10,688 bases of DNA from DATKZS01 sp035527835 [NCBI: bacterium] (lineage in GTDB: Bacteria; RBG-13-61-14): NCBI GenBank assembly GCA_035527835.1, contig DATKZS010000083.1, forward strand, positions 1 through 10,688. Direction: 5' to 3'. Numbering within the stretch: the stretch's first letter is position 1; each line of letters begins with the position of its first letter. The translations under genes were made by a program, and so were the position numbers. Below, piece after piece: positions 1-10,688 of the stretch. Below the pieces are notes generated by a model that searched no databases, had not been told where the DNA came from, and was given only the letters and a program-made list of their open reading frames with translations.

Positions 1-134
1 CCGGTCCGCCAAGCCGGTTGGGGCCAACGCTCCGGAGCTGTTATTTGCCGGGCCGCAAAGAAACATCATGATTTACTTGGCGATCCTTGGCGCTCTTGGC
101 GTCTTGGCGGTTTTCTTACGGCCTATTTTGGACA
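1..134 (+). mobile_element. right part of a ~250-bp MITE-like structured repeat (copy 1, truncated by the window edge)
   Basis: Positions 1-113 match 10576-10688 in the same orientation with three differences (at 43, 57 and 83). The copy contains four CTTGGCG units (76-82, 86-92, 95-101, 103-109) and ends with TATTTTGGACA at 124-134, the exact reverse complement of TGTCCAAAATA at 10459-10469, which begins the other copy. Together the two partial copies imply an element of about 250 bp with 11-bp terminal inverted repeats and no convincing coding capacity. It ends about 40 bp before the exbB promoter. Calling it mobile is inference; a target-site duplication cannot be tested because each copy is incomplete. 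Confidence 0.6.
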
Positions 135-171
135 AGAGTGATCCACTACACTAGTTTTGGCCGCATTCCCG

Positions 172-180
172 TGATAACAT
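172..180 (+). promoter_or_regulatory. candidate extended -10 promoter of exbB, possibly giving a leaderless mRNA
   Basis: TGATAACAT reads as TG-n-TAACAT, an extended -10 box. No convincing -35 is seen. The box ends 10 bp before the exbB ATG, and no Shine-Dalgarno sequence lies between them, so transcription would start at or a few bases before the start codon. Confidence 0.4.
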
Positions 181-190
181 ATCCCGCATT

Positions 191-895
191 ATGGGAGATA
201 CCTTGCAGTTGATCAATTCGTTCTTCCCCCTGCTGGAGCGGGGGGGAGTGGTGATGTGGCCGATCGCGCTGTGCTCGGTGGTGGCGCTGGCCATCATCCT
301 GGAGCGGTCGTGGTTTCTGCTGGTTCGGGGGTCCCGGATCGCTCCGCGCGCATTTTTGCGCGAGGTCGAGGCCTACCTGGACCAGGGCAAGATCGAGGAC
401 GCGGTGGTGGCGTGCCGCAAGAGCGACTCTCTGATGGCCAAGGTGCTGCTGTCGGCGCTTTTGCTTTACGGTTCGCCCCGGGAGCGGATCCGGGAGGCAT
501 TGGAGGACGAGGGCCGCCGGGCGGCGCGCGAGCTGGAGCGGTTTTTGGGCATCCTGGCGGCGGTCCCGGGCCTTTCCACGCTGCTAGGGTTCCTGGGCAC
601 GGTGATCGGGATGATCCAGATCTTCGACCAGATCTCGCAGCGGCACATCGGGCAGATGGAGTTTTTAGCGAGCGGCATTTACGTGGCGTTGTACACCACG
701 GCCTTCGGGCTGATCGTGGCGGTCCCGGCGTACCTGGCTTACAAGGGCTTTTCCGGGCTCGCGGAGCGCAGCGTCCGGGAGATGGAAGAATTCGCGGTGG
801 ACCTGTTGAACCACATGGACAAGGCCGCGGCCAAAGGCCAGGCCGCGGCCATGGGCCAGGCCGCGGCCATGGGCCAGGCCGGGAACGGTAAATGA
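191..895 (+). CDS. exbB: MotA/TolQ/ExbB-family proton channel protein
   Basis: Inner-membrane channel subunit that, with an ExbD/TolR partner, converts proton-motive force into work on the cell envelope (TonB-dependent uptake or a Tol-like role). The 234-aa protein has the family layout: TM1 about residues 20-37, a large cytoplasmic segment, TM2 about 126-147 containing the signature LLGFLGTVIGM (131-141), and TM3 about 164-184. The length is normal for the family. The ATG at 191 follows an extended -10 box by 10 bp with no ribosome binding site. The stop overlaps the next start as ATGA, so the pair is probably translationally coupled. The C-terminus carries a low-complexity GQAAAM repeat encoded by an 18-bp tandem repeat. 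No tonB, tolA or receptor gene is nearby, so TonB and Tol roles cannot be separated; ExbB is the family-level choice. Confidence 0.85.
   Translation: MGDTLQLINSFFPLLERGGVVMWPIALCSVVALAIILERSWFLLVRGSRIAPRAFLREVEAYLDQGKIEDAVVACRKSDSLMAKVLLSALLLYGSPRERIREALEDEGRRAARELERFLGILAAVPGLSTLLGFLGTVIGMIQIFDQISQRHIGQMEFLASGIYVALYTTAFGLIVAVPAYLAYKGFSGLAERSVREMEEFAVDLLNHMDKAAAKGQAAAMGQAAAMGQAGNGK
836..880 (+). repeat. 18-bp in-frame tandem repeat at the 3' end of exbB
   Basis: The unit GGCCAGGCCGCGGCCATG occurs at 836-853 and 854-871 and again partly at 872-880; a degenerate partial unit precedes it. Each unit encodes GQAAAM, lengthening the cytoplasmic C-terminus of ExbB without changing frame. Exact repeats of this kind can change copy number by slippage. 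Confidence 0.8.
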
Positions 896-1365
896 AATTC
901 AAGGACAAGGAACGCGAGGACCCGCGGCCCGAGCTGACATCGCTCGTGGACATCATCTTCATCCTGGTCCTGTTCCTCACCGTCACCACCACCTTCGCGA
1001 CCTCCGGCGGCATCAACGTCAGCCTGCCCCAGGCCTCCAGCCAGCGGCCCCTCGAAAAAGCCGACAAGCTCTTCGTGGTGATCAACAAGGAAGGCGACGC
1101 CTTCATCGAGGGCGAGAAGCTCACCAACCAGCAGCTCTCCGGGCGGTTCAAGACGCTTTCCCGGGCGGCGCCCGACGGAGTGGTGGTGCTGCAGGCGGAC
1201 CAGGCCACGCTGCACGGCCGGGTGGTCGAGGTCATGGACCTGGCCGAGATGGCGGGACTGAAAAGACTGGCCATCGCGGCGGAGCAGAAACCGGTGGAGA
1301 CGCCAGGAGAAGGCCCCGCGCCGGCAGAGACCAGCGGGTCCACCGTGGGCGGCCCGGAAAAATAG
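892..1365 (+). CDS. exbD: ExbD/TolR-family biopolymer transport protein
   Basis: Partner of the preceding ExbB-type channel. The 157-aa protein has a short cytoplasmic N-terminus, one membrane helix (about 15-37, LTSLVDIIFILVLFLTVTTT) and a periplasmic domain. Asp20 in LTSLVD is at the position of the family's essential proton-carrying aspartate. The domain from about 55 to 135 contains the ExbD-like pattern of a strand with LFVVINKEGDAFIEG and a later VVVLQAD segment. The C-terminal 25 residues are rich in Pro, Gly and Glu and look disordered. Its ATG overlaps the exbB stop by four bases. The stop lies 10 bp from the end of the convergent M20 gene, with no clear terminator between them. Confidence 0.87.
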   Translation: MKFKDKEREDPRPELTSLVDIIFILVLFLTVTTTFATSGGINVSLPQASSQRPLEKADKLFVVINKEGDAFIEGEKLTNQQLSGRFKTLSRAAPDGVVVLQADQATLHGRVVEVMDLAEMAGLKRLAIAAEQKPVETPGEGPAPAETSGSTVGGPEK

Positions 1366-1375
1366 AGGCGAGCCA

Positions 1376-2800
1376 TTATTCCGAGTTCAAGATCAGCCGC
1401 CGGTAAAATTCGATGATTTCCTCGATGTTGTCCACCGCGATCCTTTCATCAGTTCCGTGGGCGCGCTCCTGATCCTTCTCGCTCACCCGCATCGGGATGA
1501 AGCGATAGACGCTGTCGCTTATGTTCTCGTAGTGGCGCGAATCAGTGCCGCCCAGGACCAGGAAGGGCGCCATCAGCGTCCCGGGAAAAACTTCGGCGAT
1601 CGTCGTCTTCAGGATCTTGAAGCCGTCGGACTCCACGCTCGATACTTTGGAAGCCTCGCGGGCCCCGTCCATGATCTCCACCGCGACCCGGGGATCGGCA
1701 ATGACCTTCTTCACCCGGCCCACGGCGTATGCAATGTCGTCGCCGGGGAGCAGTCTGAGGTTGACCACCGCCCTGGCCTCCTGGGGGAGCACGTTTTCCT
1801 TGGAGCCGGCTTCGATGATGGTGGCCGCGGTGGTGGTCCGGATCATGGCGTTGGTGGCGTTGACTTTTGACAGCATGTTTTTGATCACTCCGCCCAGGAG
1901 CCGGCGGCCGCTGATGGCGGCCCTCATGGAGGCGGGCATCTCGGGGGCCAGGCTTTCGAAGGTCAGAACGGTAACTCCCTCCAGGCGGGAGGGGAAGGGC
2001 CGCTTCTCGAGGCGGTGGATCGCGGCGCCGAGGATGCCGATGGCCGATTCCGGCGGCGGCATGGACGAGTGCCCGCCCCCGGTTTTTACCTTTAGTTCCA
2101 GCGAAAGATATCCTTTCTCGGCGATGCCGACCATGGCAAGGGGCTTGTCAATGCCCAGCGGCGCGCCATCAACGATGAATCCTCCCTCGTCAATAACGTA
2201 CTCCGCCTTCGCTCCCCGCGATTCGAGCAGCGACGAGATCGCGGCGGCCCCGTGGTCGCCGCCCACTTCCTCGTCATGCCCAAAGGCCAGGTAGATCGTG
2301 CGCCGCGGAGCGTGCCCTTCGGCGATCAAGCCCTCCACCGCTTCCATGATCGAAATCAGGAAGCCCTTGCAGTCCATGGTCCCTCTTCCCCACACGTAGC
2401 CGTCGGCGATGTCGCCGGAAAATGGAGAATGGGTCCAGTCACCAATGGTGCCGGGCGCGATGGGGACCACGTCCTGGTGGGCCATAAGGATCACGGGTCT
2501 GGCCGAGGGGTCGCTTCCCTGCCAGGTGTAGAGCAGGCTGAGGCCGCCGGCCTTCTCCCGAACCAGGTTTTTATGGATGAGAGGATAGCTTGTTGCGAGA
2601 TAATCATGGAGCGCGAAAAATTCCGTTGCATCCACCTGGGACGGGTCCTGGTGCGAAATGCTCTTGATCTTCACCGCGCCCGACAGGCTGTTCGCGGCGC
2701 TGCTCGCCCCCGAGGCCGATGTCGCATAAGGGGCCGACAGCAGGGAGATGGCCAGGATGCAGACAACGGCGGCCAACCTTTTGGGAACGCATATTTTCAT
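1376..2800 (-). CDS. secreted M20-family metallohydrolase, PM20D1/carboxypeptidase S-like
   Basis: Predicted dinuclear-zinc hydrolase of 474 aa acting on an amide or peptide bond outside the cytoplasm. The start at 2800 is chosen because GGAGG lies 8 bases upstream and because it begins a Sec signal peptide (KR near residues 7-8, hydrophobic 9-23, likely cleavage near ATSAS). Visible M20 residues: His108 and Asp110 (AHQD), bridging Asp143 (GRGTMD), catalytic Glu177 and zinc ligand Glu178 (GHDEE), Asp204 (VIDEGG), His244 (GGHSS, dimerisation-domain motif) and His448 (HGTDE). The segments GHDEE, DEGGFI, AIGILGAA, RTTTA and TDSR match what I recall of PM20D1, which makes and hydrolyses N-acyl amino acids, and of yeast CPS1, a carboxypeptidase. 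The substrate is unknown. The gene looks less G+C-biased than its neighbours, possibly a sign of transfer. Confidence 0.88.
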   Translation of the reverse strand: MKICVPKRLAAVVCILAISLLSAPYATSASGASSAANSLSGAVKIKSISHQDPSQVDATEFFALHDYLATSYPLIHKNLVREKAGGLSLLYTWQGSDPSARPVILMAHQDVVPIAPGTIGDWTHSPFSGDIADGYVWGRGTMDCKGFLISIMEAVEGLIAEGHAPRRTIYLAFGHDEEVGGDHGAAAISSLLESRGAKAEYVIDEGGFIVDGAPLGIDKPLAMVGIAEKGYLSLELKVKTGGGHSSMPPPESAIGILGAAIHRLEKRPFPSRLEGVTVLTFESLAPEMPASMRAAISGRRLLGGVIKNMLSKVNATNAMIRTTTAATIIEAGSKENVLPQEARAVVNLRLLPGDDIAYAVGRVKKVIADPRVAVEIMDGAREASKVSSVESDGFKILKTTIAEVFPGTLMAPFLVLGGTDSRHYENISDSVYRFIPMRVSEKDQERAHGTDERIAVDNIEEIIEFYRRLILNSE

Positions 2801-2808
2801 TTTTCCAA

Positions 2809-2813
2809 CCTCC
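2809..2813 (-). promoter_or_regulatory. ribosome binding site deciding the M20 hydrolase start
   Basis: GGAGG on the minus strand, 8 bases before the ATG at 2800. An in-frame upstream start would add 17 residues ahead of the signal peptide, so the internal ATG is preferred. Confidence 0.7.
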
Positions 2814-2926
2814 ATGAACCTGAATGATGCGGCAGGCCCGACGCGCCGCATGCCACACGCGGGCTATTCCCCGCCTTCCGCGGGAAAACGCCCTCCTTGA
2901 TCGTCTCGAACTCCATTAGAACATGC

Positions 2927-2936
2927 TTGTCGACAA
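2927..2936. promoter_or_regulatory. 10-bp perfect palindrome in a divergent gap, possible operator
   Basis: TTGTCGACAA is a perfect palindrome between the divergent M20 hydrolase and ftsB genes, about 60 bp upstream of the ftsB -10 box. This position would suit a regulator binding site, but no family is recognised and a 10-bp palindrome could occur by chance. Confidence 0.2.
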
Positions 2937-2997
2937 TCTCCCAAGTCCAGCCGGAATCAAGGCTCCTTGGCGCCGGCTACGAATTTTCAACGGAATC

Positions 2998-3006
2998 TGT
3001 TATAAT
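2998..3006 (+). promoter_or_regulatory. extended -10 promoter of the ftsB-cyclase operon
   Basis: TGTTATAAT is a perfect extended -10 (TG-n-TATAAT). The -35 region is weak, as is usual for extended -10 promoters. Transcription would start near 3013, giving a leader of about 50 bases before the ftsB ATG at 3063. Confidence 0.6.
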
Positions 3007-3049
3007 CTACAGTACGGCATCCCGGTGCGTACGCTCATGCTGGACATGC

Positions 3050-3055
3050 GGAGGT
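3050..3055 (+). promoter_or_regulatory. ribosome binding site deciding the ftsB start
   Basis: GGAGGT lies 7 bases before the ATG at 3063. An in-frame GTG at 3054 overlaps this site and is therefore an unlikely start. Confidence 0.7.
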
Positions 3056-3062
3056 GGAAAAG

Positions 3063-3359
3063 ATGAAGCTCAAGGTGGCGGTGGGCGTCCTGGTTCTTAT
3101 TATCCTCGCGTTCACGGTGTTCGGAGACCGTGGCCTCTTAAACCTCGTCCGGTACCAGCAAGAAAGGCAGGAGCTGCTCTCACGGGCGCAAAAGCTCCGG
3201 GAAGAGAACCGGGAGCTGCGCGCGGAGATCGAGCGTCTCCAGAACGACCCGGCGCACATCGAGCGCCTGGCCCGGGAGGAGCTGGGCATGGTGAAGCCCG
3301 GCGAGCTGGTGATCCAGTTTTCCGAAGACCCCGGCAAGGAAGCTCCAGGCAAACCATGA
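3063..3359 (+). CDS. ftsB: FtsB/DivIC-family septum formation protein
   Basis: Small bitopic division protein that, with FtsL and FtsQ, links the early and late divisome and helps activate septal peptidoglycan synthesis. The 98-aa product has one N-terminal membrane helix (about 5-20) followed by a coiled coil (about 30-62, rich in Glu, Arg, Leu and Gln). The conserved DivIC/FtsB tail follows: DPAHIERLAREELGMVKPGE (62-81), whose pattern of DP, IE, AR and ELGMVKPGE is diagnostic. Start ATG 3063 is set by GGAGGT at 3050. The stop overlaps the next start as ATGA, so it is coupled to the downstream diguanylate cyclase. The expected partners ftsL and ftsQ are not in the window. Confidence 0.85.
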   Translation: MKLKVAVGVLVLIILAFTVFGDRGLLNLVRYQQERQELLSRAQKLREENRELRAEIERLQNDPAHIERLAREELGMVKPGELVIQFSEDPGKEAPGKP

Positions 3360-5497
3360 AACGGGCGCGATCATCGCGCGATCTTTTGGCCCAGGCGCGG
3401 CCGCTCATCCGGCCCGCGCTTTACTTTCTCTCCCTTCTGCTCATCGCCTCCGGCCGCTTCGACCATTTTGCCGGGTACGGCGCGCCGCACTACGTCGCGC
3501 TGGCCGGGCTCCTGGTGGTCGTGCTCTTCGAGATCATGACGCTCATTGACCAGCAAGGCGACACGCGGCGGCGGGTGATGTGGCTGGGGGCCTGGACCAT
3601 GGCGGGCATGACGGTGGCGACGCTGGCGGCGGGGAGACACGGGCCGGCGCTCGGGCCCCTGTCCTTTATTATTTTCGCGGTGGCCGCGAGCTCGGCCGGG
3701 CTCAGGCGCGGGGCCATGCTGTGGCTCATGACCATGGCGCTCGTGGCGGGGCACTCGGCCTGGGCGGGCCGGGCCGATCCCGACTGGCCGGGCGCCGGCA
3801 TTCACGGCGCGTACCTCGCGGCGTTCGGCCTGGCCATGGGATTGTTCGTGAGCCTGGAGCGGAGGTCGCGGCAGCGGGCGGAGCGGGCGCTCGATGACCT
3901 CAAGCGCGACGTTTCCGAGTTCCAGCGCGACGACACGGTGCACCGGCTCTCGGGTCTCACGGACCAGGGGCGGAAGAGCGAGGCGGTGCGGTCGGTGTTC
4001 GCGCTGGACGAGGCGTTCCACGCGGCCCTGGAGGCCGGCCGCGAGGCCGTGGAGGCGGACGCGCTGGCGCTGTACTGGCGGGCGGCGGACGGTCCGTTCC
4101 ATCTGCGGGAGGTCTCGGCGTCGGATGAGATCAACGCGGAGGCCCGGGTGGCGGCGGGGTCGGGGCTGTTGGGCTGGGTGGCGGCGGAGGAGACGGCGCT
4201 CCGGGTGTCGGGGCCGGAGCGGCTGAAGGGAGCGTTGCCGTACCGTGGAGGGGCGGCGGTGGAGCATCTGGTGGCGGTTCCGGTGCTGAGCCAGGGCCGG
4301 CTGGCCGGGGTGCTGGCGGCGGACCGGAAGGACGGCAACGGGTTTTCGGCGGCGGACGAGAAGCTGATGAATCTGCTCGCGGACAAGGTGGCGGACGTGC
4401 ATTCGCACGCTCTGCTCATGAAGCTGGTCGAGTCGGAGGCCGCGCAGTTCAAGTCGCTGGCCGAGCTGTCGCACCGGCTCTCGCAGTCTCTGGACCTCGC
4501 GGAAATTTTCGCGGCGGTGCTGCGCATGAGCCAGGCCATTACCGGCCACGACGCGGCGGCCATCGTGCTGCCCGGCGACGACGGCGCGCCGGTGGTGGCG
4601 GCGGCCGGCGGGGACATCGTCAAATCGGCGGAGGGACAGGCGGTGGTGGAGGGGACACTGGCGGGATGGGTGATCGCACAGAAGCAGTACCTTTCCATCC
4701 CGGACCTGGCCGAGCGAACGCGCAAGACTTGGGCCCTGGGCCAGCGCCTCGACCCGTCCGGCATGAAGTCGGCGCTGATCCACCCGCTGCCGCTCAAGCA
4801 CTCGGCGCAGGGGGCGCTGGCGCTGTTCTCGCGCGAGCCGGACGCCTTCGGCCGATACATGGTGCGGGTCTCCGGCATTTTGGCGGACATCGCGGCGGTG
4901 GCGATCCATAACGCGCTCCTGTACCGGGAGATGGAGCAGCGGGCGGTGACCGACGGGCTCACCGGCCTTTACAACCACCGCTGGTTCCAGGGGCGGCTGA
5001 CGGACGAGATCGAGCGCGCGGGCCGGCTGGGCACGCGGCTCGCGGTGGTGCTATCGGACATTGACCACTTCAAGAAGATCAACGACGCCTACGGCCACCC
5101 GGTGGGCGACGAGGTGCTGAAGGGGGTCGCGGCGCTGCTTTGCTCGTCGGTGCGCAAGGTGGACAGCGCGGCGCGCTACGGGGGCGAGGAGTTCGCGCTC
5201 ATCCTGGTGGGCGCCGGGGAAAAGGGCGCGCGCGAGCTCGCGGAGCGGGTGCGCAAGAACGTGGCCAAGCTCCGCTTCCACGCTGACGGCAAGGAATTCA
5301 AGGTGTCGCTCTCGCTGGGGGTGGCGGTGTACCCGGACGACGCCACGGAAAAGGAGTCGCTGATCGAGCTTAGCGACCAGGCGCTCTACCGGGCCAAGGA
5401 GAGCGGGAGGAACCGGACGGTGATGGCGGCGGCGCTAAACAGTGAGATCAAAGAAAACCGCCAAGGCGCCAAGAGCGTTAAGAAAGAAATATTTTGA
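3356..5497 (+). CDS. membrane GAF-GAF-GGDEF diguanylate cyclase
   Basis: Predicted 713-aa enzyme condensing two GTP into cyclic di-GMP. About six membrane helices fill residues 17-166, followed by a charged linker (about 168-210), two GAF-like sensor domains (about 210-355 and 375-525) and a GGDEF domain from DGLTGLYN (533-540). The active-site loop is GGEEF (609-613), a functional variant. Asp568 in SDIDHFKKIND is the expected metal ligand. RKVD (600-603), five residues upstream of GGEEF, is an intact RxxD inhibitory site, so product feedback is likely. ATG 3356 overlaps the ftsB stop; the same frame is open upstream as far as 2897 from a TTG, but that runs through ftsB and is rejected. The last 15 codons (residues 699-713) and the stop lie inside an inverted repeat, so the native C-terminus was probably replaced. 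Confidence 0.88.
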   Translation: MKRARSSRDLLAQARPLIRPALYFLSLLLIASGRFDHFAGYGAPHYVALAGLLVVVLFEIMTLIDQQGDTRRRVMWLGAWTMAGMTVATLAAGRHGPALGPLSFIIFAVAASSAGLRRGAMLWLMTMALVAGHSAWAGRADPDWPGAGIHGAYLAAFGLAMGLFVSLERRSRQRAERALDDLKRDVSEFQRDDTVHRLSGLTDQGRKSEAVRSVFALDEAFHAALEAGREAVEADALALYWRAADGPFHLREVSASDEINAEARVAAGSGLLGWVAAEETALRVSGPERLKGALPYRGGAAVEHLVAVPVLSQGRLAGVLAADRKDGNGFSAADEKLMNLLADKVADVHSHALLMKLVESEAAQFKSLAELSHRLSQSLDLAEIFAAVLRMSQAITGHDAAAIVLPGDDGAPVVAAAGGDIVKSAEGQAVVEGTLAGWVIAQKQYLSIPDLAERTRKTWALGQRLDPSGMKSALIHPLPLKHSAQGALALFSREPDAFGRYMVRVSGILADIAAVAIHNALLYREMEQRAVTDGLTGLYNHRWFQGRLTDEIERAGRLGTRLAVVLSDIDHFKKINDAYGHPVGDEVLKGVAALLCSSVRKVDSAARYGGEEFALILVGAGEKGARELAERVRKNVAKLRFHADGKEFKVSLSLGVAVYPDDATEKESLIELSDQALYRAKESGRNRTVMAAALNSEIKENRQGAKSVKKEIF

Positions 5498-5539
5498 ATT
5501 GGTTTTCTTGGCGGTCTTGGCGCCTTGGCGGTTTTCTTT
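5450..5539. repeat. perfect 25-bp inverted repeat, CGCCAAG family, spanning the cyclase stop codon
   Basis: Arms 5450-5474 and 5515-5539 are exact reverse complements around a 40-base loop. The left arm carries CGCCAAG-g-CGCCAAG followed by a decayed third unit (CGTTAAG), stepping 8 then 9 bp. The cyclase stop (5495-5497) is in the loop, which also contains AAGAAAGAAATATT (5480-5493). A T-rich run follows the right arm, so it may act as an intrinsic-terminator-like structure. It ends 3 bp before the -35 of the next promoter. Confidence 0.85.
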
Positions 5540-5542
5540 TGC

Positions 5543-5569
5543 TTGACCTCTCACACCTTCGGCTAATAT
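5543..5569 (+). promoter_or_regulatory. candidate promoter of the ABC permease operon, near-leaderless
   Basis: TTGACC (5543-5548) and TAATAT (5564-5569) are separated by 15 bp, slightly short for sigma-70. The -10 ends 9 bp before the ATG at 5579, so the transcript would start almost at the start codon. GGAG at 5573-5576 is too close to the ATG to act as a normal ribosome binding site. Confidence 0.45.
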
Positions 5570-5578
5570 GATGGAGCC

Positions 5579-6454
5579 ATGGCGCGGGGCGAGGGCATAA
5601 TCAGCGGGAGGGCGGCGGGGGCGTTCAGCGCGCCGGCCGCCGCGCTGATCGTCCTGTTCCTGGCCTTTCCGGCGCTGTGGGTGATCGTGATCGGTTTCAC
5701 CGACCTCACCCTCACCTCGGTCTCCGCGCCGTCCTTCGTAGGCCTCGGGAATTTTTCGCGGATTTTCCACGACCACTTTTTCTGGAACGCGCTCAAGGTG
5801 AGCACGGGCTTCGTGATCGGGTCCGGGGTAATCGGCCAGGCGGGGCTGGGGCTTTTGCTGGCGATGATGCTGCACGGGGAGAAGGGGGCGGTCAAGGGCG
5901 CGATCCAGGCGGCGGCGGTGGCGGCGTGGATTTTGCCGGAGGTGGTGGTGGCGTATTGCTGGGCGGCGTTTCTCGACGCGGACGCGGGCCTGTTGAACCG
6001 CGCCATCACGGCGCTGGGCCTGCCCGCGGTGCCGTGGCTCCAGAGCCACGCGCTTTTGTCCATCATCGTGTTCAACACCTGGCGGGGCACGGCTTTTTCG
6101 CTCCTCTTGTTCAGCGCGGCCATCGCGTCGCTGCCGCCGTCGTATCTGGAGACGGCGGAGGTGCTGGGCGCGCCGGCGTATAACAAGTTCAAGGACATCA
6201 TCCTGCCCCTGATCCGGGGCACCCTGCTCACCGACCTCATCCTGATCACGCTGTGGACCTTCAACGTGTTCACGCCGTTTTTGTTGACGCGCGGGGGCCC
6301 GTCGTTCGCGACCGAGATCCTGCCGGTGTACATCTATCGCAACGCGTTTCTGGGGACGTTCAAGCTGGGGTTCGGGTCGGCGGCGGCCACCGTGATGCTG
6401 CTCATCAACCTCGGGCTGGGCGCGTTTTACATCGCGGCGGGGAGGAAGCGATGA
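5579..6454 (+). CDS. sugar ABC transporter permease, MalF/UgpA type
   Basis: Inner-membrane permease subunit of a carbohydrate-uptake ABC importer (CUT1 type). The 291-aa protein has six predicted membrane helices (about 17-40, 74-98, 112-131, 158-182, 215-236 and 264-287). The cytoplasmic coupling loop is the EAA motif ETAEVLGAPAYNKFKDIILP (191-210), with the conserved Glu, Gly197 and terminal LP that dock onto the ATPase. N-terminal start ATG 5579 lies 9 bp after a -10 box; no better in-frame start is visible. The stop overlaps the second permease start by ATGA. Substrate cannot be told from sequence; UgpA-, LacF- and MalF-like proteins are all possible. Confidence 0.87.
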   Translation: MARGEGIISGRAAGAFSAPAAALIVLFLAFPALWVIVIGFTDLTLTSVSAPSFVGLGNFSRIFHDHFFWNALKVSTGFVIGSGVIGQAGLGLLLAMMLHGEKGAVKGAIQAAAVAAWILPEVVVAYCWAAFLDADAGLLNRAITALGLPAVPWLQSHALLSIIVFNTWRGTAFSLLLFSAAIASLPPSYLETAEVLGAPAYNKFKDIILPLIRGTLLTDLILITLWTFNVFTPFLLTRGGPSFATEILPVYIYRNAFLGTFKLGFGSAAATVMLLINLGLGAFYIAAGRKR

Positions 6455-7272
6455 AGGCGGCGGCGATCGTGAAGTACGCGCTGATGGCGCTGTTCCTGCT
6501 TTTCTTCATCATGCCTCTGTGCTGGCTCGCGGTGACTCCGTTCTCGACGCGGCCTTCCATGGCGGTCGCGCTGCCCGGGCTCACCCTCAATAATTTTTCG
6601 TGGGCGTGGTCGGCGGGGGCGCGGGGGAACCTGCTGCCGTTCGTGAGCTCGGCCATCCTGTCGGCCGGGTGCATGATGCTGGTGGTGGCGGCGGGGTCGC
6701 TGGGCGCTTACGGGCTGGCGCGCTCCGGGTTCCGGGGCAAGGAGGCGGCGCTGTACGGGCTGGTGCTGCTCTCGTCCATCGTGACGGGGGTGGCGGCGAT
6801 GGTCCCGATCTACGGGCTGATGCTCAAGCTCCGGCTGGTGGACACCTATCTCGGGGTGGTGCTGGTAATGGCGGCGGGGTATCTGCCGACGGCGGTTTTT
6901 ATTTTGAAGGACTTCATGGACGGGGTGCCGCGTTCGTACGAGGAGGCGGCGCTGGTGGACGGGTCGTCGGCGTGGCAGGTATTCCGGAACGTGGCGTTCC
7001 CGCTGGCGCGTCCGGGGATCGCGGTGATCGCGCTGTTGGCTTTCATCAACGCGTGGTCGAATTTTCTGATCCCGTTCATCCTGTTCACGTCGCACGCGGC
7101 GGACCATTACCCGCTGTCGGTGGCCATCTTCCGGTTCCAGGACGAGATGGGCATCTTGAAGATCGGGACGATCGCGTCGTACTCGCTGGCCTACGCGCTG
7201 CCGGTGATCGGGGTGTACTTCTGGATCTCGCGGAGGTACGGGTTCGGGTTTTTCGGGGGGATCAAGGGGTGA
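6451..7272 (+). CDS. sugar ABC transporter permease, MalG/UgpE type
   Basis: Second permease of the carbohydrate importer, 273 aa. Helices are predicted at about 8-28, 65-90, 98-122, 132-152, 186-212 and 240-260. The EAA coupling motif is EEAALVDGSSAWQVFRNVAF (164-183) followed by PLARPG, with Glu164/165, Asp170 and Gly171 in the family positions. Start ATG 6451 has GGAGG at 6441-6445 and overlaps the first permease's stop codon, so the two are translated together. The ATPase gene follows only after a 358-bp repeat island, an uncommon gap within such an operon. No substrate-binding protein gene is seen downstream or upstream in the window. Confidence 0.88.
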   Translation: MKAAAIVKYALMALFLLFFIMPLCWLAVTPFSTRPSMAVALPGLTLNNFSWAWSAGARGNLLPFVSSAILSAGCMMLVVAAGSLGAYGLARSGFRGKEAALYGLVLLSSIVTGVAAMVPIYGLMLKLRLVDTYLGVVLVMAAGYLPTAVFILKDFMDGVPRSYEEAALVDGSSAWQVFRNVAFPLARPGIAVIALLAFINAWSNFLIPFILFTSHAADHYPLSVAIFRFQDEMGILKIGTIASYSLAYALPVIGVYFWISRRYGFGFFGGIKG

Positions 7273-7311
7273 GCGCGCGCCAGGGGAGGGTCATCATTGG
7301 GAGGGGATTGA

Positions 7312-7566
7312 TTTCGCACAGAGGCACAGAGAACACAGAGAATTTTTATTTTTTATTTTTCTCCGTGTTCTCTGTACTACTAACATGCAAGATGCATAAA
7401 TTTCTTTGCACCTTTCGAGAAATAATGCGCATCCGGCTGAAAGAATGAATGAACAAGGATGTAAAGGATATTCAGGATAAAAAAATCTTATCCTTGACAT
7501 CCTGAATATCCTTGTTAATGAATTCTTTGGTTGCGGCCTTGTGCCGCGCTAGGTTTCTGTGCGAAA
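7312..7566. repeat. composite repeat island: CACAGAG-family inverted repeat with its right arm displaced
   Basis: The gap 7273-7630 holds no supportable gene. The left arm has CACAGAG units at 7317-7323, 7325-7331 and 7334-7340 (8- then 9-bp steps). A 17-bp inner stem pairs 7326-7342 with 7359-7375 with one mismatch. The right arm stops at 7375, but TCTGTGCGAAA, the exact reverse complement of the outer left end (7312-7322), reappears at 7556-7566. The intervening 180 bp include an 87-bp second repeat (7441-7527) and a GC hairpin GCGGC-N5-GCCGC (7533-7547). The simplest reading is insertion into the right arm; a rearranged older element is also possible. Confidence 0.65.
7441..7527. repeat. 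AAGGAT-family inverted repeat nested in the island
   Basis: Outer arms 7441-7460 and 7508-7527 match as inverted copies at 17 of 20 positions. The inner part is three near-identical hexamers in 9-bp steps (AAGGAT, AAGGAT, CAGGAT at 7455, 7464 and 7473), met by the same hexamers inverted at 7488-7514 but with the linkers (GTA, ATT) in the opposite order, so pairing is imperfect in the middle. The loop is A-rich. Confidence 0.7.
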
Positions 7567-7619
7567 CAAAAATACGATGGGCGGGTCAGCGCTGATATGA
7601 CGGCAACTTAATTTTGATC

Positions 7620-7623
7620 GGAG
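7620..7623 (+). promoter_or_regulatory. ribosome binding site of the ABC ATPase gene
   Basis: GGAG lies 7 bases before the ATG at 7631, supporting that start. No convincing promoter is seen between the repeat island and this site, so the gene may depend on read-through from the permease genes. Confidence 0.55.
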
Positions 7624-7630
7624 TATTTAG

Positions 7631-8692
7631 ATGGCGGAAGTGGTTCTGGAAAACGCGGTCAAGGATTTCGGCGGGACGCGGGCCGTGGACGACGTGTCGC
7701 TCACGGTGGGCGACGGCGAGTTTTTCACGCTGCTGGGGCCGTCGGGCTGCGGCAAGACGACGACGCTTCGGCTGGTGGCGGGCCTGGAGTACGCGGACTC
7801 GGGCCGGGTGCTGATCGGCGGGCGGGACGTGACCAGGGTGCCGCCGGCGGGGCGGCGCATCGCCATGGTTTTCCAGAACTACGCTCTGTACCCGCACATG
7901 ACGATCCGGGAGAACATCGGGTATCCGCTCAAGCTGAAGAAGAAGCCGGAGCGGGAGCTGAATGAAAAGGTTGACGAGGTCGCGCGGCGGCTGGGGATCG
8001 AGCAGGTGCTCGCGCGGAGCCCGGCGGCGATCTCGGGCGGGCAGCAGCAGCGGGCGGCGGTGGCGCGGGCCATGGTGGGCGAGCCGCTGGTGTATTTGTT
8101 CGACGAGCCGCTCTCGAACCTGGACGCGCGTCTTCGGCTGGAGTCGCGGCGCTTTTTGAAGCACGTGCTCCGGGAGACGGGCGGGACGGCGGTGTACGTT
8201 ACGCACGACCAGACGGAGGCCATGGCGCTGTCGGACCGGGTGGCGGTGATGAAGGAGGGGCGGCTGATCCAGGTGGCGGCGCCGGAGGAGCTGTACGCGC
8301 GTCCGGCGAGCACGTTCGTGGCCGGGTTCGTGGGGCATTTGCCCATGAACCTGATCGAGGGCGAGGTCCGGATGGCGGACGGCCCGGCGTTTTGCGCGGG
8401 TGATTTGCGGGTCAAGCTGCCGGCGGGGACCGCGGGCCGGGACGGGGCCCGGGCCACGCTGGGGGCGCGGCCGGAGGACCTGGCGCTGACCATGGGCGGC
8501 GGTATCCGGGGCCGGGTGGAGGACGTGGAGGAGCTGGGTTCGGAGAAGATCGTCACGGTTTCGTGCCGGGGCGTGGCGCTGATCGTGCGGGTGGTGGTGG
8601 GCCAGGCGCCGCGGCCGGGCGACGAGGCGGACGTTATTTTCGACCCGGCCCGGGTGCACCTGTTCGACGAAAAAGGGGAGAGGATTGATTGA
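7631..8692 (+). CDS. sugar ABC transporter ATP-binding protein, MalK/UgpC type
   Basis: Cytoplasmic ATPase that powers a carbohydrate importer, very probably with the two permeases upstream. The 353-aa protein shows all nucleotide-binding motifs: Walker A GPSGCGKT (36-43), Q-loop Gln82, signature ISGGQ (134-138, Ile in place of the usual Leu), Walker B with LFDEP (156-160, catalytic Glu159) and switch His192 (THDQ). The region from about 235 onward is the TOBE/regulatory domain typical of MalK, UgpC and MsmX, with the pattern GARPEDL (278-284). Length is normal. GGAG lies 7 bases before the ATG. MalK/UgpC-family ATPases can serve several importers, which would fit the gap from the permeases, but this is inference. 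Confidence 0.9.
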   Translation: MAEVVLENAVKDFGGTRAVDDVSLTVGDGEFFTLLGPSGCGKTTTLRLVAGLEYADSGRVLIGGRDVTRVPPAGRRIAMVFQNYALYPHMTIRENIGYPLKLKKKPERELNEKVDEVARRLGIEQVLARSPAAISGGQQQRAAVARAMVGEPLVYLFDEPLSNLDARLRLESRRFLKHVLRETGGTAVYVTHDQTEAMALSDRVAVMKEGRLIQVAAPEELYARPASTFVAGFVGHLPMNLIEGEVRMADGPAFCAGDLRVKLPAGTAGRDGARATLGARPEDLALTMGGGIRGRVEDVEELGSEKIVTVSCRGVALIVRVVVGQAPRPGDEADVIFDPARVHLFDEKGERID

Positions 8693-8717
8693 GTGGGGAG
8701 GGTCAATCACGGATTCT

Positions 8718-8797
8718 TTTCACGCAAAGGCGCAAAGAACGCAAAGCCAAGAAAATAATATTTCTGATTTTTGCGATCTTTGCGCCTTTGCGTGAAA
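8718..8797. repeat. perfect 21-bp inverted repeat, CGCAAAG family
   Basis: Arms 8718-8738 and 8777-8797 are exact reverse complements. The left side has CGCAAAG at 8723-8729, 8731-8737 and 8740-8746, stepping 8 then 9 bp. The A/T-rich loop contains AAGAAAATAATATT (8749-8762). It starts 26 bp after the ATPase stop and ends 44 bp before the tRNA promoter, so it may terminate the transporter transcript. Confidence 0.85.
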
Positions 8798-8841
8798 TAA
8801 ATTTCCCCTCCATTGAGAGGGTCCGTTTCAGGCCTCCGGAC

Positions 8842-8873
8842 TTGACACGGCCGGAAGCCATGATATATATAAT
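8842..8873 (+). promoter_or_regulatory. sigma-70-type promoter of the tRNA pair
   Basis: A consensus -35 TTGACA (8842-8847) is followed by an overlapping -10 region: TATATA at 8864-8869 (16-bp spacer) or 8866-8871 (18-bp), or TATAAT at 8868-8873 (20-bp). The leader holds a short hairpin GCCGG-AAGT-CCGGC (8880-8893). Confidence 0.7.
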
Positions 8874-8903
8874 TTAACAGCCGGAAGTCCGGCGCTGGTG
8901 CGG

Positions 8904-8979
8904 GCAGGAGTAGCTCAGTTGGTAGAGCTCCACGTTGCCAACGTGGCTGTCGCGGGTTCAAGTCCCGTCTCCTGCTCCA
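8904..8979 (+). tRNA. tRNA-Gly, anticodon GCC
   Basis: Complete cloverleaf: 7-bp acceptor GCAGGAG/CTCCTGC (8904-8910 with 8969-8975), D arm GCTC-AGTTGGTA-GAGC, anticodon stem CCACG/CGTGG around loop TTGCCAA with GCC at 8937-8939, T arm with GGTTCAAGT, discriminator T and an encoded CCA (8977-8979). It is probably cotranscribed with the tRNA-Cys 8 bp downstream. Confidence 0.97.
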
Positions 8980-8987
8980 TTTTTATC

Positions 8988-9062
8988 GGCGGCATAGCCA
9001 AGTGGTAAGGCGACGGTCTGCAAAACCGTTATACACCGGTTCAACTCCGGTTGCCGCCTCCA
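8988..9062 (+). tRNA. tRNA-Cys, anticodon GCA
   Basis: Acceptor GGCGGCA/TGCCGCC (8988-8994 with 9052-9058), anticodon stem ACGGT/ACCGT around loop CTGCAAA with GCA at 9020-9022, T loop GGTTCAACTCC, discriminator T and encoded CCA (9060-9062). No intrinsic terminator with a T run follows directly; a repeat hairpin begins 55 bp later. Confidence 0.97.
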
Positions 9063-9117
9063 TCAATTTCCCCATCAATTCCACGGTATCCTCGAGAACG
9101 AGTGGGTTATTAATTTT

Positions 9118-9195
9118 GCCGCAGATGAACGCGGATGAACGCAGATAAGAAAATATTCAAAAATTAATCCGCGTTCATCCGCGTTCATCTGCGGC
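9118..9195. repeat. perfect 25-bp inverted repeat, GATGAACGC family
   Basis: Arms 9118-9142 and 9171-9195 are exact reverse complements. The left side is three 10-bp units (GCAGATGAAC, GCGGATGAAC, GCAGATAAGA). The 28-base loop begins with AAGAAAATATT (9147-9157). Imperfect flanking inverted sequence extends outward, with GAGTGGGT (9100-9107) facing ACCCACTC (9215-9222). It lies between convergent tRNA-Cys and rlmD and could terminate both. Confidence 0.85.
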
Positions 9196-9226
9196 TATTA
9201 AATAAGTTCGAATTACCCACTCCGGC

Positions 9227-10387
9227 TCATCCCTCCCTCACGATCAAACTCACCGTCTCGATGTGGGCGGTCTGGGGGAACATGTCGAGGGGGGTGATGG
9301 AGCGGAGGGCGTAGCCTTCGCGGGCGAGGTCTTTGAGGTCGCGGGCCAGGGTGGCGGGGTCGCAGGAGACATAGATGACGCGGGGCGGGGCGAGGCGGAT
9401 GATCCCGCTGACGGCCGGCCGGGCGCCGGAGCGCGGCGGGTCGAGCACGACCAGGTCAGGCCGATCGGCATCGCTCGCGCCCGCCAGAAAATCCTCTGCC
9501 TTCATATTCACGAACCTGACGCGCGCGGCGTGATCTTTCCCGATGCTCCGCCGGCCGAGCTCCATTGCCGCCGGATCGCTGTCCACCGCGGTCACCTGCT
9601 CACAGCGGCCGAGCAGCGCGCCCGCGAGGTTGCCCGTGCCCGCGTATAAATCAATCGCCTTCGCGCACGGCCCCTGCCCGGCCAGCCCCGCCACCAGCTC
9701 CCTGAGCGCCTCGTTGCGCTCCGGGTTCACCTGCGAGAAGGCGGCGCGCTGCCCCGCGTCCGGAGTCCAGCCGCCGTTGACCCACCGATAGGTCTTCCGG
9801 CCGCGGCCGGCCGCGATGGCCCATAAGCCGCCGTCCGGCAAAAGCATCAGCTCGACCGTCTCGGTCCCCCTGGCCCTGACGAGCCCGCCCAGCGTCGGCA
9901 GCAGGGCGTTGAGCTCGTCGCGCGCGATGTAACAGTGCGGGACCGGCAAAAGCTCGTTGGCGCCCTCCGCGAAAAACCCGGCGATGCCGCGCCTCACCTG
10001 GAGCTTGATCCGCGCGCGGTAATGCCAGGGAGAAGCCGCGGGCAACACCGGCGCGACCTCCGCCTCCACACCGGCCAGCCGCGCCAGAACCTCTTGCACG
10101 ATCTCCCGCTTGAACCGAAGCTGGGCCTCATACGAAACGTGCTGCAATTGACACCCGCCGCACCGCCCGAACAGCGGGCACGGCGGCACGGCCCGCTCCG
10201 GCGACGGTTCCACGACCTCCACTCTCTCCGCGGTCCGCCTCCGCCGCTCCTTCCTGATCGCGCCGATGCGCACGGTCTCGCCGGGTATCACGAACGCCAC
10301 GAACACGACGCCCTCGGTGTCGCGGACCAGGCCGAGGCCGCCATGGACGAGCTTCTCGACCTTGTAGACTTTGTTGTCCATGTTCAT
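9227..10387 (-). CDS. rlmD: TrmA/RlmD-family RNA uracil-C5 methyltransferase
   Basis: SAM-dependent enzyme that methylates C5 of a uridine, in RlmD U1939 of 23S rRNA. In the 386-aa product a TRAM domain (about 5-60) is followed by a [4Fe-4S] motif with Cys70, Cys76 and Cys79 (CPLFGRCGGC) and Cys152 (PHC). The methyltransferase domain has the SAM-binding loop DLYAGTGNL (246-254), LDPPRSGA (315-322), the nucleophile Cys342 in VSCDPATLARDL, and general base Glu377 in HIETVSLI. Start codons TTG 10390, ATG 10387 and ATG 10381 are close together and none has a ribosome binding site; 10387 is chosen. RlmD, TrmA and RlmCD cannot be fully separated by motifs; the FeS cluster and TRAM domain favour RlmD or RlmCD. 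The upstream gap is filled by repeats. Confidence 0.85.
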   Translation of the reverse strand: MNMDNKVYKVEKLVHGGLGLVRDTEGVVFVAFVIPGETVRIGAIRKERRRRTAERVEVVEPSPERAVPPCPLFGRCGGCQLQHVSYEAQLRFKREIVQEVLARLAGVEAEVAPVLPAASPWHYRARIKLQVRRGIAGFFAEGANELLPVPHCYIARDELNALLPTLGGLVRARGTETVELMLLPDGGLWAIAAGRGRKTYRWVNGGWTPDAGQRAAFSQVNPERNEALRELVAGLAGQGPCAKAIDLYAGTGNLAGALLGRCEQVTAVDSDPAAMELGRRSIGKDHAARVRFVNMKAEDFLAGASDADRPDLVVLDPPRSGARPAVSGIIRLAPPRVIYVSCDPATLARDLKDLAREGYALRSITPLDMFPQTAHIETVSLIVREG

Positions 10388-10413
10388 CAATAAGGGTTGA
10401 TATTTTTTATTGA

Positions 10414-10440
10414 GCGCAAAGACGCAAAGAACGCAGAGAA
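10414..10440. repeat. single arm of a CGCAAAG-family repeat
   Basis: CGCAAAG (10415-10421), CGCAAAG (10423-10429) and CGCAGAG (10432-10438) step 8 then 9 bp, as in the full hairpin at 8718. No inverted right arm follows before the next element starts at 10459, so this half was probably cut off by that insertion. The 298 bp from 10391 to the end contain only repeats; short open frames through them are not supported as genes. Confidence 0.7.
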
Positions 10441-10458
10441 TCTATTTTTTCCCAGTGC

Positions 10459-10688
10459 TGTCCAAAATAAACGGACCGGAGAACCGCCAAGACGCCAAGA
10501 GCGCCAAGGATTATTTTTAAACACGATTTTAAGAGGGCTGGGGTGCGAATGTTTCTTGCTTGGCGCTCCCGTCGGCCGGTCCGCCAAGCCGGTTGGGGCC
10601 AACGCTCCGGAGCTGTTCTTTGCCGGGCCGCGAAGAAACATCATGATTTACTTGGCGGTCCTTGGCGCTCTTGGCGTCTTGGCGGTTT
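10459..10688 (+). mobile_element. ~250-bp MITE-like structured repeat (copy 2, last ~21 bp outside the window)
   Basis: Begins with terminal repeat TGTCCAAAATA (10459-10469). Inverted CGCCAAG-triplet arms lie at 10485-10508 and 10661-10684, both in 8/9-bp steps. The interior folds as nested stems: ATGTTTCTT/AAGAAACAT (10549-10557 with 10633-10641), GCTTGGCG/CGCCAAGC (10558-10565 with 10582-10589), GTTGG/CCAAC (10592-10596 with 10599-10603) and palindrome GCTCCGGAGC (10604-10613). The part 10576-10688 is nearly identical to 1-113. It could be a non-autonomous transposable element or a structured RNA; no transposase is in the window. Confidence 0.6.

Follow-up and report, generated by a model that had tools for sequence, protein, structure and literature searches.

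Palindromes of spaced words in the window

The window analysed here is a stretch of 10,688 nt from the bacterium DATKZS01 sp035527835 (assembly GCA_035527835.1, contig DATKZS010000083.1, positions 1 to 10,688). Our subject is the set of hairpins that sit between its genes, together with GxxExxY, a family of small predicted nuclease genes found elsewhere between arms of the same make. Based on Pfam, the window codes for ExbB/ExbD, an M20 peptidase, DivIC, a GAF-GGDEF protein, a binding-protein-dependent ABC transporter and an RNA methyltransferase, and Rfam detected two tRNAs only (tRNA-Gly and tRNA-Cys). An earlier note on this DNA had described the hairpin arms as three heptamers C-R-C-M-R-A-G in steps of 8 and then 9 bp (hereafter 8/9). 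That grammar is borne out in the window: with both strands counted, CRCMRAG-N-CRCMRAG-NN-CRCMRAG is present in seven exact copies, and it was absent from 300 first-order Markov shuffles.

The gene-less hairpin at 5450-5539 is made of CGCCAAG words in 8/9 steps, with 18 nt between its arms (inverted repeat of 92%, DNA fold z of -11.4). It runs into the 3' end of the GGDEF reading frame and lies upstream of an ABC permease gene. One three-word arm lies at 5507-5530 on the reverse strand; the arm that had been placed at 5450 actually starts at 5459, with CGTTAAG as its third word. At 8713-8802, a gene-less hairpin of CGCAAAG words has 8/9 steps in both arms (8723-8746, forward, and 8769-8792, reverse, the latter with CGCAAAA as its last word; inverted repeat of 83%, z of -9.9). 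A larger gene-less element at 10485-10687 has a left arm of three CGCCAAG words (10485-10508, forward, 8/9) and a right arm of four (10651-10684, reverse), with an inverted repeat of 100% over 29 nt and its matching arm parts 148 nt apart. Its four-word arm, like that at 76-109 (reverse, four times CGCCAAG), has steps of 8, 9 and 10 bp counted from outside. The latter arm belongs to the right half of a gene-less element (1-117, reverse), the left half of which would precede the window start.

Inversion of the arms around a loop, as claimed earlier, is seen in most window hairpins, with two exceptions. In the gene-less hairpin at 7313-7378, the left arm has three CACAGAG words in 8/9 steps (7317-7340, forward), but the right arm is decayed and pairs with only about two words in the DNA fold (z of -6.5). 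The arm at 10415-10438 (forward; CGCAAAG, CGCAAAG and CGCAGAG in 8/9 steps) is solo: no inverted partner was seen in the stretch folded, which gave no fold (z of +1.2). Two more hairpins had been set apart as using other units in 9- or 10-bp steps. This is correct for the gene-less hairpin at 7440-7528, where AGGAT words recur in 9/9 steps as judged by eye (inverted repeat of 78%, z of -6.4). However, the one at 9118-9195, also gene-less, follows the same three-word rule, with CGCAGAT/CGCGGAT words in 10/10 steps in both arms (9120-9146 and 9167-9193; inverted repeat of 97%, z of -10.9). The fold z values are for five window hairpins folded as single DNA strands, from -6.4 to -11.4.

The two ends of the window share a direct repeat of 113 nt (1-113 and 10576-10688, 97% identical), and the record thus starts inside one repeat copy and stops in another. 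When the taxonomic place of the window was sought, the best near-full-length match had 38% identity. No GxxExxY gene was found among the nine window proteins compared with Pfam or among all frames of at least 40 residues compared with GxxExxY profiles. None of the nine proteins matched the four-helix-bundle family described below, and Rfam identified no 23S rRNA in the window.

Inverted arms around GxxExxY genes

To describe gene flanks, the 300 nt upstream of each gene were locally aligned with the reverse complement of the 300 nt downstream and the scores compared with those of shuffles. The loci are those of the top-scoring genes, at most the best 30 per family search and mostly one or two per genome; one duplicate locus was dropped from each of two sets. 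The first GxxExxY set stems from 24 loci hand-chosen for their 8/9 arms in 23 genomes. The flanks of its 30 genes harbour inverted arms of the same grammar, detected at 28 of the 30 with each of three shuffle seeds (28, 28, 28). Inverted arms were likewise found at 25-29 of 30 genes in a Verrucomicrobiota set (seeds 29, 27 and 25) and at 26-27 of 29 in a Planctomycetota set (seeds 27, 26 and 27). Extra GxxExxY copies in two complete genomes are bracketed in 9 of 11 cases (9 with both seeds), two of the 13 extra-copy regions being genes already counted. Two GxxExxY genes from viral contigs, found without regard to repeats, have inverted arms as well (raw scores of 28 and 29, without shuffles). 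For two of the partner proteins, the assignment is well above the curated cut-offs (TIGR04256, 141.7 and 146.8 bits versus 35; PF13366, 141.3 and 140.8 versus 22).

Pseudo-genes placed 850 nt off in the same loci were bracketed in 0/55, 1/57 and 1/53 cases (2/165 in total). Genes of Uma2, another multi-copy family of the same genomes, gave 2/22 with both seeds (the set comprising 22 of 30 loci). Y1 transposase genes of the same genomes have inverted flanks in 8-9 of 30 cases (seeds 9 and 8), mostly REP-like palindromes of other sequence. A REP-type Y1 transposase as the partner, which the earlier note had envisaged, is rejected: triplet arms are found on one side of 1/30 Y1 genes and on both sides of none. 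Generic triplets, defined as CRCNRAN with steps of 8-11 bp, were present on both sides of 0/30 four-helix-bundle, 0/30 Y1 and 0/22 Uma2 loci.

Pattern and gene are also associated at the level of genomes. TIGR04256 was detected in 22 of the 23 genomes chosen for 8/9 CGCCAAG arms; among 14 control genomes, three have a match at E 0.001 and none above the cut-off. Of 145 Verrucomicrobiota genomes not chosen for repeats, 46 have the 8/9 pattern and 69 the gene; 40 have both, 6 the pattern alone, 29 the gene alone and 70 neither (Fisher p 6e-11). The corresponding numbers for 149 Planctomycetota genomes, also not chosen for repeats, are 56 and 70 (both 40, pattern only 16, gene only 30, neither 63; Fisher p 4e-6). 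A control pattern read backwards occurs in one and three genomes of these samples, respectively, whose phyla were taken from record titles.

No GxxExxY match was found in phage records. Eight plasmid records have one, and one element, used as a DNA query against plasmids, gave a single weak match. In the Bacteroides finegoldii plasmid NZ_OY725952.1, the GxxExxY gene lies between radA and a gene for an FAD protein, in the same direction.

Arm code, gene-less copies and filled junctions

Beyond the window, the spacing of the words is not random, but it is not uniformly 8/9 either, this being one of several classes. With free gaps, the matches listed for CGCCAAG triplets in genome contigs comprise at least 45 with 8/9 steps, at least 29 with 15/15, at least 26 each with 9/9 and 8/8 and at least 11 with 12/12, other spacings being rarer. 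Among the matches listed for viral contigs, CACAGAG triplets are mostly 9/9 (88, with 32 at 8/9 and 21 at 8/8, of at least 194) and CGCAAAG triplets mostly 8/8 (55, with 27 at 8/9 and 16 at 9/9, of at least 178). The reverse order, 9/8, is rare in the same lists: 1, 4 and 4 cases versus 45, 32 and 27 for 8/9 with CGCCAAG, CACAGAG and CGCAAAG, respectively. Judging from their multiples of three and their context, many triplets with 9-, 12- or 15-bp steps look like coding sequence. The gap classes in contigs and beside genes rule out 8/9 as the sole spacing. Helical phasing, proposed earlier as three sites in phase with the turns of the DNA, was discarded for want of support, since steps of 8 to 11 bp share no single helical turn.

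Generic triplets were scored in 100 GxxExxY loci. The 92 arms of the loci with triplets on both sides have steps of 8/8 (26 arms), 8/9 (22), 9/9 (17), 9/10 (11), 10/10 (11), 10/11 (3) or others (2), and in these gene-flanking arms the inner step exceeds the outer one 38 times and never falls short of it. Identical spacing, as the earlier note had it, is thus mostly a property of single elements and does not extend from one element to another. The two arms of one element have the same spacing in 91% of cases, versus a mean of 20% and a maximum of 39% in 500 reassignments of arms. Their letters at the variable word positions agree at 75-99% (39-65% when reassigned) and their spacers at 63% (42%). 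Copies with different arms coexist in one genome, the arms within a copy mostly agreeing. At loci L690, L762, L767-L769 and L774, a second triplet or hairpin lies inside the element, 8/8 rather than 8/9 in all but L690.

The arms co-vary with the protein. We mapped them on a tree of 100 GxxExxY proteins, in which the 46 rows with two-sided triplets were labelled and many inner branches are weak. Spacing class changes 21 times on this tree, versus 28.2 when shuffled (0/400 as low), word position 7 changes 3 times versus 9.5 (0/400) and word position 5 changes 9 times versus 12.9 (1/400). The 10/10 rows, five in all, belong to a single group of eight (support of 83 in the Shimodaira-Hasegawa-like approximate likelihood ratio test, SH-aLRT), which includes Phycisphaera, Thiodictyon and Iningainema loci. 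In a clade of ten (SH-aLRT 97), the four rows with two-sided triplets are all 8/9, the other seven 8/9 rows being elsewhere on the tree. According to the source locus titles, the same clade spans Bacteroidetes, Chloroflexi, Sorangium, Phycisphaerae, Chromatiales and cyanobacteria.

The sequences of the 100 proteins have a GxxE motif near the N-terminus and conserved residues at alignment columns D64 (99%), E74 (98%), K76 (100%), Q88 (99%) and Y92 (98%). They correspond to the D/ExK/QxxxY motif, which we take to be the mark of the RecB/Cas4-like branch. Searches of the PDB found no convincing relative of GxxExxY (one match, E 0.24).

Gene-less copies can be numerous. Genome G217 has 261 arms; facing arms with loops of 24-209 nt were found in ten of the 15 regions read. 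Of the 22 arms read, 20 agree with the 10-nt leader of a gene-bearing copy (L616) in at least 8 of the 10 letters, as did 32 of 20000 random 10-mers. These leaders, from one genome, are the strongest indication that gene-bearing and gene-less copies belong to one family. Gene-less hairpins may also enter phage genomes; in viral contigs L223, L256, L305 and L321, facing triplet arms adjoin phage-like genes by eye. In the Brasilonema genome G169, some arms lie inside other palindromes with different ends, in an apparent in-frame stretch of mutS, after the ligA stop or in the ridA leader (gene names by eye).

Orthologous junctions are polymorphic for the elements. In G145 and G104, both complete genomes, several elements were seen by eye to follow the stop codon of one gene and precede the start of the following one. 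For three elements of G145, the flanks were joined and compared with 41 genomes of the family to which G145 belongs. The junction of one of them, L640, is contiguous in nine relatives, where the aligned flank ends are 27-71 nt apart. Twelve wider junctions were read for this locus. Five hold GxxExxY elements (G098, G323, G111, G346 and G326), one a gene-less hairpin beside a GxxExxY-like frame (G342), two gene-less inverted repeats by eye (G344 and G083) and four other sequence (G336, G341, G333 and G343). A second element, L639, also has a contiguous junction in one relative, G098 (85% identity).

Genes for an unrelated four-helix-bundle family (TIGR02436, PF05635; loci L386-L415 and L721-L749) also lie between inverted word arrays, at 22-23 of 30 loci (22, 22 and 23) and 17-20 of 29 (20 and 17), but with another rhythm. 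Among upstream arms with a clear lag, 28/31 of those at four-helix-bundle genes have one of 7 or 14, versus one of 8, 9 or 10 in 30/32 at GxxExxY genes; the lag is not clear in 11/42 and 58/90 bracketed arms, respectively. The occurrence of two rhythms at two unrelated genes is an argument for arms that are part of each gene's own biology; equally, palindromes could accept passengers.

Interpretation and rival explanations

On balance, we lean towards the view that the window hairpins are gene-less members of a family of small palindromic mobile elements, the gene-bearing members of which carry one GxxExxY gene between inverted arms. Movement by the enzyme is what we infer from this arrangement. 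In its own arms, probably in the form of a hairpin, the GxxExxY nuclease would recognize both words and spacing, and would cut there. Cutting would spread its own element and, in trans, gene-less copies, much as the enzymes known as RAYT or TnpA-REP are thought to act on repetitive extragenic palindromic (REP) sequences. A comparable pairing of palindromes with an enzyme, but with another nuclease and another arm code, is our best reading by analogy. The earlier proposal of recognition by a protein has gained a candidate, GxxExxY, with its PD-(D/E)XK assignment, and the tracking of the tree by spacing and by word positions 5 and 7 is what recognition predicts.

Several observations weigh against this interpretation. 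Plain co-inheritance of arms and gene predicts the same tracking, and the fit of word positions 2 and 4 to the tree is weak (26 and 34 of 400 shuffles). Only 46 of 100 GxxExxY loci have a strict triplet on both sides, and 73 have one on at least one side. At the junctions, no target-site duplication could be called, the empty and filled versions being too diverged. The structure model of GxxExxY, made from two sequences, is unusable (mean predicted local distance difference test, pLDDT, of 38.6), and because of this the PD-(D/E)XK fold assignment rests on Pfam and motifs.

Further observations of this kind fit an explanation in which the palindromes are spread by other machinery, such as replication slippage, a different transposase or recombination, and GxxExxY is a passenger or a regulator in the loop. 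Most arms are gene-less. Thus, 106 of 140 facing pairs have loops shorter than 200 nt, long loops carried other genes by eye, and a GxxExxY frame was found in 0/355 loci fetched by the arm pattern, which include coding repeats and viral contigs, whereas the same profile finds 30/30 gene loci. Some arm-rich genomes have no detected or no matching GxxExxY gene. The pattern occurs without a detected gene in 6/46 and 16/56 genomes of the two samples, including G224 (108 arms) and G212 (29 arms), although genome gaps may account for some of them. No such triplet was seen at the one GxxExxY gene read in G177 (85 arms) or at the second one of G217, and the abundant CGCCAAG arms of G027 match none of the five GxxExxY genes examined there. 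In Brasilonema, most of the 40 arms (L567-L606) have no good inverted partner and solo arms are found inside other palindromes. The four-helix-bundle genes between inverted word arrays can be counted on the same side. Nevertheless, nearly every sampled GxxExxY gene is bracketed, spacing class tracks the protein tree, and the active-site residues are kept in 98-100% of the 100 proteins. We regard spread by other machinery as unlikely, though the strongest of the rivals.

Spread might instead resemble homing, with GxxExxY cutting an empty intergenic junction and repair copying the element in. GxxExxY elements are found at the L640 boundary in G145 and five relatives, six genomes in all, several of which have similar CACTAAT/CACTGAT arms by eye; in nine others the boundary is contiguous. 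However, this shared occupancy may reflect vertical inheritance with losses, and the 261 arms of G217, which share their ends at many sites as far as they were read, call for dispersal rather than site-specific homing. We consider a homing-like spread improbable. We give slightly less credence still to the hairpins being functional sites of the host, i.e. bidirectional terminators or RNA-processing signals. They are strong and intergenic, and some in the window end in T-rich tracts (by eye), but presence or absence at orthologous junctions speaks against such a role. So does the orientation of neighbouring genes: 18 classifiable gene-less hairpins lie between 13 tandem, 3 convergent and 2 divergent pairs, much like the baseline of 216/71/95, with no excess of convergent pairs (based on rough open reading frame calls, with 13/32 hairpins inside a call and one at an edge). 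Lastly, GxxExxY might act against foreign or structured DNA, the arms marking self or regulating the gene. A weak likeness to Cas4 profiles (E 0.0084 and 0.049) points in this direction, but these matches are near chance level and we consider such a function very improbable.

Returning to the elements as mobile units that depend on GxxExxY, several known systems offer partial parallels. They resemble miniature inverted-repeat transposable elements (MITEs) in being short, gene-less, mostly intergenic and, in some genomes, of high copy number, with inverted ends; the window hairpins and the arms of G217 have inverted ends, no gene and several copies. Unlike in MITEs, the presumed helper belongs to no known transposase family. 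Intergenic arrays of heptanucleotides are presumably also what the short tandemly repeated repetitive (STRR) sequences of cyanobacteria represent. The TAACTGA repeats of Beggiatoaceae are similar in that respect, but they are direct heptanucleotide repeats, notably just upstream of start codons (PMC4679880), with no inverted arms around a gene. REP/RAYT systems (REPtrons, REPINs) are close in that palindromes are tied to one small nuclease gene and to many gene-less copies. In these systems, enzyme groups co-evolved with their palindromes, TnpA-REP is an HuH enzyme and a GTAG-type motif is tied to the palindromes (PMC8266576). The gene described here is of the PD-(D/E)XK type, its arms have three or four spaced words, and no GTAG-type motif was seen at the palindrome foot in the leaders of ten window arms. 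The intervening sequence (IVS) of 23S rRNA is described in PMC4990558 as a selfish inserted element of 428 nt with a small four-helix-bundle gene, removed by RNase III. It shares with our elements a small gene in an inserted element, and the four-helix-bundle genes (IVP/S23) described above lie between inverted word arrays. It differs in sitting in 23S rRNA, and the words step by 8-10 bp around GxxExxY genes and by 7 bp around four-helix-bundle genes. In the papers searched, literal 15-mers of the window repeats had no match, and no account of the pairing of arms with GxxExxY was found in that literature.

Arms of this kind bracketing GxxExxY genes across several phyla suggest a widespread, little-noticed type of small mobile element. 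A broader proposal, which we put forward tentatively and with more doubt than confidence, is that palindromic transposable elements defined by GxxExxY form a class present in many bacterial phyla. Its D/ExK/QxxxY nuclease would read a code of three or four words with steps that never shrink inward (up to 8, 9, 10) and would mobilize many gene-less hairpins in trans, and the four-helix-bundle (IVP) family would form a parallel class with 7-bp words. With its words, spacing and non-shrinking steps, the arm code lends itself to direct tests of specificity with oligonucleotides. If the proposal is true, a PD-(D/E)XK enzyme would join the palindrome-moving enzymes, the abundant hairpins in genomes of uncultured bacteria would be explained, and a common protein family of unknown function would gain a role and a substrate.

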